64,000 bases of DNA from Chloroflexota bacterium (GTDB taxonomy: Bacteria > Chloroflexota > Limnocylindria > Limnocylindrales > CSP1-4), in assembly GCA_025935925.1 (NCBI GenBank), contig JAICUI010000001.1:1-64000 (forward strand), given 5' to 3'. The notes beneath the pieces were generated by a model. It was given only the letters and a program-made list of their open reading frames with translations, ran no database searches and had not been told where the DNA came from. Made by a program: the position numbers and the translations under genes. Below, one piece after another: positions 22,190-27,470 of this stretch. Position 1 is the first letter of the stretch. Every line of letters begins with the position of its first letter.

Positions 22190-24543
<2,354 letters not shown>

Positions 24544-24547
<4 letters not shown>

Positions 24548-25260
24548 CCCGGGAGCCTCGCCTCCGGGGCCTTCGTGCCGGCGGCGACGAACGTGTCGGG
24601 CTGGGGCGCGTCCTGGACCATGCGGACCGGGATGACGCCGCCCCAGGCGGGCCACGCCTCGTCGTCGTCGTCGTGGTTGATGTCCGCGCGGACCTTCGCC
24701 GACGCCTCCGTGAGGTCCATCCACAGCACGGACGTCGCCTTGCGCTCCTTGGGCGACATCGGCCGGAGCTCCGGCCAGCGACCCGGATAGAGGTGCTCGA
24801 CGAACGCCTCGAGGGCCCGTTCGGCCTCCGCGGGATCGGTCACGAGGTGGGCCGTCCCCAGCGCCATCACCGACCGGAAGTTCACGGAGTGGTTGAACCC
24901 GGACCTCGCGAGCACGAGCCCGTCGAGCAGCGTGACGGTGACGCACACCGGGACGCCGTCCGTGCTTCGGAGCATCCGGCTCGCCGACGAGCCGTGCCAG
25001 TACAGCCGGTCGCCCTGGCGCCAGACCGCGGTCGGCGTGGCGTACGGCTGGCCGTCCTGGACCCACGCGACGTGGCCGACGATCGCGGCGTCGAGGATCG
25101 CGTCGATCGTCTCGCGGTCGTACCGGCCGCGCTTGGGCAGGCGGCGGACGCGCGTTCGGTCCGACGGCGGGAGAACGAGGGGGACAGGCTCGGCGGGCTC
25201 GCCCGGCTCCGTGTCGGGGTCCGGGTACTCGGCGCGCCCGGCGGCCGGGGTCTGGCTCAC
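24544..25260 (-). CDS. PNPOx-fold protein (split-barrel flavin-binding)
   Basis: 238-aa protein. After a Pro/Glu-rich N-terminus the domain begins RRLPKRGRYDRETIDAILDAAIVGHVAWV, then GQPYATPTAVWRQGDRLYWHGSSASRMLR, a pattern of pyridoxamine-phosphate-oxidase-like FMN-binding proteins (often annotated Nim-like or DUF). GTG 25260 overlaps the upstream small ORF's stop. The two stop codons of this gene and the convergent UvrA-like gene share CTAG at 24544-24547, leaving no intergenic space. Activity is unknown. Confidence 0.82.
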
Positions 25261-25484
25261 TTGCGGTACAGGACCCAGAGCGTGACGCCGGTGGGCTGCG
25301 GCGCGTAGCCGTATGCCGGGGCCGCGGCGGGCGGCGTCGTCGCGACGGCGCCGATGTTGGCGATGCGCCAGCCCTCTGGGGCTCGGCGGGCGGCGTCGGC
25401 GGCGACCCAGTCCCAGAGCGGATCGCCAAGCGTGGTGTCGGCCGTGACCAGGAGCTGGTCGTCGCCGATGAGTCGCTCCTTCAT
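25257..25484 (-). CDS. Small conserved-looking hypothetical protein
   Basis: 75 aa from ATG 25484, which has a GAGGGGACC-type ribosome site. The sequence has GDPLWDWVAADAARRAPEGWRIANIGAV and ends LWVLYRK; it has no signal peptide or membrane helix. It is coupled by a four-base overlap to the PNPOx-fold gene. No family recognised. Confidence 0.6.
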   Translation of the reverse strand: MKERLIGDDQLLVTADTTLGDPLWDWVAADAARRAPEGWRIANIGAVATTPPAAAPAYGYAPQPTGVTLWVLYRK

Positions 25485-25614: not shown

Positions 25615-26055
25615 TCAGTCGCTGCCGCAGCTCGAGTTCACGTGGTCGATCGTGACGTCGAAGTCCCTGATCTGCAGGACCGCCTGGTAGTGGCACGTCT
25701 CGTCGAGGAAGCGCGACTTCGTGTTCGTCACCGTGTGGTACACCGCGACGCCGTCGTTGCCGAAGAAGAACCGGTCGTTGGTGAGCTCGGTGCTCTGCCC
25801 GAGGACGACGCCGCCGAGCGAGATCGTCGTGACGACCTTCTGGTGGACGATGACGGCGGAGCCCGGCTTCGAGTCGGTGAACTCGGCCTTGCCCGTGACG
25901 TCGAAGCAGTACGTGTACCAGGGGCTGTCGTCGAAGCACCACGCGTCGGACAGGTCCTGGGACGTGGGGGAGGCGGCGAGGGCCTGCGACCCGCCGGCGA
26001 CGGCGAGGGCGGCGACCGCAAGCACGGGGGCGAGGAGGCGGACGAGGCGATGCAT
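25615..26055 (-). CDS. Secreted hypothetical protein
   Basis: 146 aa. A clear Sec signal peptide is present: MHRLVRLLAPVLAVAALAVA then GGSQALAA, with cleavage expected near residue 28. The mature part is small, beta-rich in appearance and has four cysteines (WCFDD, YCFDV, TCHYQ, SSCGSD) that could form two disulfides. GGAG lies before ATG 26055. No family recognised. It follows the 49-aa secreted peptide gene by 39 bases, probably in one transcript. Confidence 0.75.
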   Translation of the reverse strand: MHRLVRLLAPVLAVAALAVAGGSQALAASPTSQDLSDAWCFDDSPWYTYCFDVTGKAEFTDSKPGSAVIVHQKVVTTISLGGVVLGQSTELTNDRFFFGNDGVAVYHTVTNTKSRFLDETCHYQAVLQIRDFDVTIDHVNSSCGSD

Positions 26056-26094: not shown

Positions 26095-26244
26095 TCAGTT
26101 CGAAGGAACGGGGATGGTCGTCGAGACGCCGCCCGGCTTCACCGGGCCGGCCTTGGGCGAGACGGCGAGCGCCGAACCGCTGAGGGCGACGACGAGGGCG
26201 ATGGCGGCGATGACGGGGGCCGCGATGCGGGCGATGCGCTTCAT
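26095..26244 (-). CDS. 49-aa secreted peptide (small ORF)
   Basis: Short gene with ATG 26244 and TGA ending at 26095. Translation gives a Lys/Arg start MKRIARIAAP, a hydrophobic core VIAAIALVVALSG and a likely cleavage site SALA, leaving a mature peptide of about 23 residues rich in Pro, Gly and Val. GGAG lies eight bases before the ATG but is part of a perfect 9-bp stem (26251-26304). It lies just upstream of the secreted 146-aa gene and shares a similar leader-peptide style. Function unknown. Confidence 0.68.
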   Translation of the reverse strand: MKRIARIAAPVIAAIALVVALSGSALAVSPKAGPVKPGGVSTTIPVPSN

Positions 26245-26250
26245 GTCGAT

Positions 26251-26304
26251 GACTCCGGGTTGGGCGGCTGGCGCGGCGCGGGGTTGTCGCCGCTGCCCGG
26301 AGTC
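26251..26304 (-). promoter_or_regulatory. Stem-loop masking the ribosome site of the 49-aa peptide
   Basis: GACTCCGGG (26251-26259) and CCCGGAGTC (26296-26304) are perfectly complementary, with a 36-base GC-rich loop. In the minus-strand transcript the 3' arm carries GGAG, seven to eight bases before the AUG, so the folded form would block translation initiation. This is the layout of RNA thermometers and other RBS-masking regulators. Nothing else is seen in the rest of 26305-26451. Confidence 0.6.
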
Positions 26305-26451: not shown

Positions 26452-26703
26452 CTAACCCTCGGCCGAGCCGCCCTGCTCGTCGTCGGCTCGCCGGGTGCCG
26501 CCCTGGGCCGGCGGCGTCCAGGACCGGTCGGCGTACCGCAGCTGACGCTGGATCAGATCGTCGTCGAGTCGCCGGGCGTCCTCGCGGAGGAGCTCGCGAT
26601 CGCGGGCGTTCTCCTCGTCCTGGGCGGCGGCGGGATCGACCGGCGCGGGCGCCTGCTCCGGCGTCGACCCGTCGTTCCCGAAGAGCCGTTTGAGGAAGCT
26701 CAT
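26452..26703 (-). CDS. Small acidic hypothetical protein
   Basis: 83 aa, beginning MSFLKRLFGNDG (a possible amphipathic membrane-binding helix), then an acidic, helix-prone segment ARDRELLREDARRLDDDLIQRQLRYADRSW and a disordered tail. The ATG overlaps the stop of the dienelactone hydrolase gene (ATGA), so it is co-translated with it. No family recognised. Confidence 0.65.
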   Translation of the reverse strand: MSFLKRLFGNDGSTPEQAPAPVDPAAAQDEENARDRELLREDARRLDDDLIQRQLRYADRSWTPPAQGGTRRADDEQGGSAEG

Positions 26704-27470
26704 GCGGCTGCGGGCGCGGCGCTCCGGATGAACGCGAGCACCTCGTCCCACGCCTTGGCCGAGGACGACGAGAACTCGTCCGCCTTGCGATCGAAGAACG
26801 AATGCGGCGCGTTCGGGTAGACGACGATCCTGTGGTCGACGCCTGCCGCGGTCAGCGCGGTCTCGAACGTGCCGCGAACCTCGGGTCCGATGTTGTCGTC
26901 CGCCCCGCCGAACAGCGCGAGGACCGGCGCCTGGAAGCTCGTCGCGACGTCCGCGGGCGCCGGGGTTCCGTTGCTCGACCCGCCCGTCGGCCAGCCGTAG
27001 AAGCCGATGACGCCGGACAGGCCGAGGCCCATCGTCGCCGTCAGGAACGCCGTCCGGCCGCCCATGCAGAACCCGATCGTGAAGATCCGGGTCGCGTCGG
27101 TCGTCGAGCGGAGGTGCTCGACGGCGGTCGTGATATCGGCGGTCAGCCCCGCGAACGTCGTCTGCGCAACGTGCGGCCGGTAGTCGAAGCCGGGACCGCG
27201 GTCGCCGATGCCCGCCGTACGCCCGAAGTAGTCGATGGCGATCGCCTCGGTGCCGTGCTCGGCGAACCGCAACGCGAGGTCGCGGTAGTAGGCGTGGAGG
27301 CCGCGCACGTCGGGCAGGATCACGATCCCGGAGCCGTCAGGCTCGGCGGCCCGCGCCTGGTAGGCCATGAACCGGTTGCCGTCGGCCGCCTCGAGGACGA
27401 GGTCCTTCGCGTCCAGCGAGCCGCCCTCGATCGGGGCGATGGGCGGGCGGGAGTCGTGGTCGAAGCACAT
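26700..27470 (-). CDS. Dienelactone hydrolase family protein
   Basis: 256-aa alpha/beta hydrolase. The catalytic triad is visible: nucleophile Cys in GFCMGGRTAF, Asp in LFGGADDNIGPE and His in PNAPHSFFDR. ILPDVRGLHAYYRDLALRFAEHG is characteristic of DLH proteins. Start ATG 27470 has GGAGGT upstream; longer frames are unlikely. It is divergent from the HTH/nuclease gene with 55 bases between. Substrate not inferable. Confidence 0.9.
   Translation of the reverse strand: MCFDHDSRPPIAPIEGGSLDAKDLVLEAADGNRFMAYQARAAEPDGSGIVILPDVRGLHAYYRDLALRFAEHGTEAIAIDYFGRTAGIGDRGPGFDYRPHVAQTTFAGLTADITTAVEHLRSTTDATRIFTIGFCMGGRTAFLTATMGLGLSGVIGFYGWPTGGSSNGTPAPADVATSFQAPVLALFGGADDNIGPEVRGTFETALTAAGVDHRIVVYPNAPHSFFDRKADEFSSSSAKAWDEVLAFIRSAAPAAA

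Follow-up and report, generated by a model that had tools for sequence, protein, structure and literature searches.

Hairpins that statically sequester a Shine-Dalgarno (SD) sequence, of the type associated with de Smit and van Duin, lower translation initiation. The leaders of the ROSE and fourU RNA thermometers likewise fold into a hairpin whose 3′ arm carries the SD. Published ROSE-type thermometers depend on the balance between mismatches and G-C pairs, and a ROSE-type thermometer in which pairing of the SD has been perfected is permanently repressed (PMC3669281). The tisB mRNA is an example of a standby-dependent mRNA (PMC7708055).

Here we describe a leader that precedes a 49-aa ORF in the window, which is the whole 64-kb stretch of Chloroflexota DNA that we analysed (Table 1). 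As in static hairpins of the de Smit and van Duin type and in tisB, a stable stem ahead of a small ORF holds the SD of this leader closed. Static or standby-dependent systems such as tisB differ from the window hairpin, for which no standby site, processing event or trans-acting regulator is known. We regard the window hairpin as a real feature of an ordinary, already known kind. With moderate confidence we read it as an SD-occluding hairpin that would impose static low, or coupled, translation on a young, lineage-restricted ORF derived from a partial duplication.

Table 1. Positions of the leader hairpin, the small ORF and the genes around them, with the related gene of a second genome
Feature	Position	Strand	Basis
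Stem 5′ arm, GACTCCGGG	26296..26304	-	Sequence; paired in minimum-free-energy fold and partition function
Loop region, 36 nt, GC-rich, weak internal pairing	26260..26295	-	
Stem 3′ arm, CCCGGAGTC, contains SD GGAG	26251..26259	-	Sequence; SD closed at 37 °C in partition function
49-aa ORF (MKRIARIAAPVIAAIALVVALSGSALA/VSPKAGPVKPGGVSTTIPVPSN), signal peptide and short Pro/Val-rich tail	26095..26244	-	Coding score, GC3, related signal peptides
146-aa secreted protein, family unassigned, with the 172-aa G011 protein as relative	25615..26055	-	
75-aa conserved uncharacterised gene, synteny anchor	25257..25484	-	Present in all 12 genus genomes
Uncharacterised 83-aa ORF, overlaps the stop of the dienelactone hydrolase gene; marks synteny on the upstream side	26452..26703	-	
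Dienelactone-hydrolase family gene, upstream	26700..27470	-	Pfam PF01738, E 5.6e-35
172-aa secreted protein gene, Chloroflexi isolate GZL_ISSM_2_bin.109 (G011)	JAICUV010000066.1, G011:C126		

The leader hairpin and its chance background

Read on the minus strand, the leader has the layout 5′-GACTCCGGG-(36 nt)-CCCGGAGTC-ATCGAC-ATG-3′, and its two arms, which an earlier note on this DNA had described as perfectly complementary, do pair at nine of nine positions (26304-26296 with 26259-26251). The 9-bp helix that they form is present in both the minimum-free-energy fold and the centroid. The SD of the 49-codon ORF is GGAG (26257-26254), which lies within the 3′ arm and ends 9 nt before the ATG; there is no second SD-like motif near this start, so that to call it the only plausible SD, as had been done, is fair. 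In partition-function calculations with transcripts beginning at 26304, 26320, 26340, 26360 or 26400, all five of which include the 5′ arm, the unpaired probability of the SD is ~0 at 37 °C. Deleting the 5′ arm in silico partly frees the SD (unpaired probability 0.10-0.94 across its four bases), which agrees with the earlier expectation that a transcript start downstream of the arm would abolish the stem. We infer that the 5′ arm is transcribed, although no sigma-70-like promoter was found; nor was a Rho-independent terminator. A stable helix covering the SD, the hallmark of static SD-sequestering hairpins, is therefore present, and the proposal that the SD is masked is supported by folding and by an SD-covering stem in one related leader, that of the congeneric isolate G011.

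The region is 73% GC. A stem this long forms in 0.5% of shuffled leaders in which the SD was kept, and opening the SD costs 8.0 kcal/mol, a value equalled or exceeded in 2.7% of 297 SD-bearing genes of the genus. Among the 252 SD-preceded starts in the window, counting those of any ORF of at least 30 aa, four are covered by stems of at least 8 bp, and the 49-aa ORF is the sole 9-bp case. Our gene background consisted of stretches, ~0.78 Mb in all, of the source genome and four congeners, with genes called by a home-made gene caller; here perfect SD-covering stems of at least 8 bp were found at 8 of 296 SD-bearing genes (3.2 expected) and those of at least 9 bp at 2 of 296 (1.1 expected), such that ~3% of SD-bearing genes carry a stem of at least 8 bp over the SD, a frequency about 2.5-fold that in shuffles. 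The 121-nt region shows no excess in overall folding energy relative to its shuffles (z = 0.01), and 9-bp inverted repeats with short spacing begin at 71 positions in the 64 kb. Nor is masking of the SD enriched in signal-peptide genes, the mean opening cost being 3.6 kcal/mol in 52 secreted and 3.8 kcal/mol in 245 other cases. Taken together, the GC content, the shuffle rates, the stem counts in the genus and the folding z-score place the stem modestly above chance: it is unusual for a single leader, but a set of a few hundred genes should contain one such stem, a caution that extends to 73% GC genomes, in which perfect 9-bp SD-covering stems are to be expected at about that frequency.

It is possible, and we hold this view tentatively, that the pairing arose by chance in a leader of such high GC content and has no selected role, with the small ORF being translated normally or never. 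A rate of 0.5% per leader, set beside the roughly 250 starts that an SD precedes in the window, is in line with a chance origin, as are the stem counts in the genus, the overall folding energy and the finding of zero compensatory changes between the window and G011 leaders; against a chance origin is the fact that in the one related leader, too, a long stem covers the SD, made in part of other bases.

Thermal stability and candidate mechanisms

The arrangement had been interpreted in the earlier note as that of an RNA thermometer or a ligand switch. A layout in which the SD is occluded by a leader hairpin is indeed what these elements have, and is what the leader shares with ROSE and fourU. 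What we do not find in the leader is the marginal stability that allows opening over 20-50 °C by way of mismatches, U-rich sequence and G-U pairs. Unlike its counterparts in ROSE and fourU thermometers, the anti-SD of the window is neither U-rich nor mismatched nor weakened by G-U pairs, and the hairpin is far too stable (-27.8 kcal/mol at 37 °C). Within longer transcripts, pairing of the SD in silico is at least 93% (93-100%) at 70 °C, with an unpaired probability of 0.07 or less, and the minimum-energy fold of the isolated hairpin is still closed at 90 °C. In published mutants, perfect pairing of the SD blocks the action of the thermometer (PMC3669281). The search of Rfam returned sub-threshold chance matches only, with zero matches to thermometer or riboswitch families, and this holds for the G011 leader as well as for that of the window. 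Since the SD stays closed at 70 °C, the stem is perfect and GC-rich, mutants of ROSE with perfected pairing are repressed and Rfam offers no match, a thermometer is unsupported, and we reject it on the strength of the predicted melting and the perfect stem. A ligand switch fares no better, because no Rfam family was matched and no alternative fold was identified; the conserved aptamer with covariation that would characterise a riboswitch was not found either, a related leader occurring in one genome and covariation being absent. We therefore consider a thermometer or ligand-responsive switch extremely unlikely. An operator for a transcription factor was likewise rejected, as GACTCCGGG occurs in the window no more often than its composition predicts (3 occurrences seen, 2.8 expected) and the G011 sequence differs.

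In the SD-occluding reading that we prefer, a very stable leader hairpin would hide the SD and the 49-aa ORF would be only weakly translated, such that the hairpin would act as a static damper of initiation and not as a thermosensor. Alternatively, the 49-aa ORF might be translated only once the hairpin has been opened by an agent other than mild heat, for which ribosome loading from upstream, a helicase or the timing of folding during transcription are candidates. If the hairpin is functional, it would add to the known examples in which occlusion of the SD keeps translation low. A more elaborate proposal, that a lineage-specific secreted micropeptide was born by duplication of the leader and signal peptide from a secreted-protein gene and sits under a conserved, non-thermal SD-occluding hairpin that a dedicated factor opens, strikes us as very unlikely.

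The small ORF, its secreted neighbour and the related gene

The signal peptide of the 49-aa ORF is clear and has ALA at its end. With a codon score of 13.3, which ranks at the 45th percentile when the first 49 codons of each called gene are scored, and a GC3 of 0.94, the ORF is from its sequence a plausible coding ORF. The earlier description of a secreted micropeptide stands as far as the ORF, its signal peptide, its coding score and its GC3 are concerned, but conserved relatives beyond the signal peptide were not found. When 100 relatives were searched, matches were confined to signal-peptide-like stretches of other proteins, and conservation of the mature part in other species, which a family of secreted micropeptides would display, was not seen. 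The peptide has no match in Pfam or NCBIfam. Viral contigs yielded no homologues, and GTDB contigs none beyond the G011 contig itself. Its signal peptide is related to that of the next gene, which encodes the 146-aa protein, and to that of G011.

The 146-aa gene follows the 49-aa ORF after 39 nt, on the same strand and in the same frame, with a single TGA between them. Its product has no match in Pfam or NCBIfam. Across 177 genomes of the class, a single full-length relative was found, namely the 172-aa G011 protein; this protein has a signal peptide of the same kind, and its mature domain and the 146-aa protein are related. The 172-aa gene is a single gene at the syntenic site and lies before the same conserved 75-aa gene; the 75-aa protein (MKERLIGDDQLLVTADT...), kept in 12/12 genus genomes, itself has no Pfam or NCBIfam match. 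The G011 gene thus shares with the window a related leader, a signal peptide, synteny and an SD-covering stem, whereas it is one full-length gene where the window has the 49-aa ORF and then the 146-aa gene. In G001 the syntenic site holds a C-terminal remnant of the 146-aa secreted protein with the 5′ part missing (L086, G001:C10:65699-65845, minus strand), and G006, the closest genome by the 75-aa gene, has neither the 49-aa ORF nor the 146-aa gene; the 83-aa ORF is partly aligned in G006. Given the remnant in one genome and the absence from the other, the syntenic site is labile.

Aligned over leader and signal peptide together, the window and G011 sequences reach a score of 72, where the best shuffle reached 43; when the leaders are compared by themselves, 1.2% of shuffles do equally well, which is marginal. 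The G011 stem pairs CTCC-C-GGGATCGG with CCGATCCC-A-GGAG, giving 12 pairs with one mismatch that cover the SD, and a 12-bp stem was reached in 0/2000 shuffles. In a column-wise comparison, G011 retains six of the window's nine pairs unchanged, while three are broken and none is compensated; the G011 leader has extra pairs of its own further inside. There is no covariation between the two leaders, and the G011 stem may be taken as mild support for a maintained SD-covering hairpin and not as covariation. The window and G011 leaders were the two compared, and the evidence of selection on the stem is weak.

Under the partial-duplication origin that we favour, the small ORF would consist of a leader and signal peptide that come from a secreted-protein gene, with the full-length relative of that gene immediately downstream, and would be young, lineage-restricted and probably the product of a partial duplication. 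Our case for this history draws on the signal peptides and on synteny, because the similarity between the mature tail of the 49-aa ORF and the G011 linker is not significant. The 49-aa ORF may be a by-product of the duplication of the neighbouring secreted gene, and, if the hairpin is functional, a duplicated signal peptide may here have given rise to a small secreted ORF. The same observations can be read as decay: the 49-aa ORF would be a relic, a truncated copy, and the hairpin a leftover from the leader of an ancestral secreted gene. The relatedness of its signal peptide and leader to the full-length G011 gene fits such a relic, as do the single TGA that interrupts the frame otherwise shared with the downstream gene and the state of the same site in other genomes (a truncated C-terminal remnant in G001, empty in G006), but the coding score and GC3 are intact and the SD and start are in place, and we think this reading possible though somewhat unlikely.

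The 49-aa ORF could also act as a leader peptide, its translation being coupled to that of the downstream 146-aa gene, as the shared strand and frame and the 39-nt gap would allow; the SD of the 146-aa gene, moreover, has an opening cost of 5.4 kcal/mol, above the median. This SD, however, pairs mostly with its own coding region and not with the small ORF, so no clear switch driven by ribosome passage is predicted; coupling through pairing of the small ORF with the downstream SD is not predicted by folding and was rejected, and we view the leader-peptide reading in general as doubtful. Since the relic and the leader-peptide readings concern the ORF and are compatible with occlusion of the SD, our confidences in the several readings overlap.

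Observations at other loci

A gene that by eye resembles homogentisate 1,2-dioxygenase (L056:9714-10937, minus strand, equivalent to G000:C103:149714-150937) has in its leader a perfect 13-bp hairpin, GACTGGCCTCCTC-acccc-GAGGAGGCCAGTC, that encloses the SD. This hairpin, which is kept in the congener G001 (L108) and absent in G003 and G009, is more striking than the 9-bp stem of the window. We note that the CTAGACT at its 5′ arm could be a -10 element, in which case this arm may escape transcription.

Within the window, an ORF on the plus strand (22295-24547) encodes a 750-aa UvrA-like ATPase, identified by eye, whose first start codon falls at the Walker A motif (GVSGSGKSS). The true start may therefore be a different codon further upstream, or the ORF may be a truncated paralogue.
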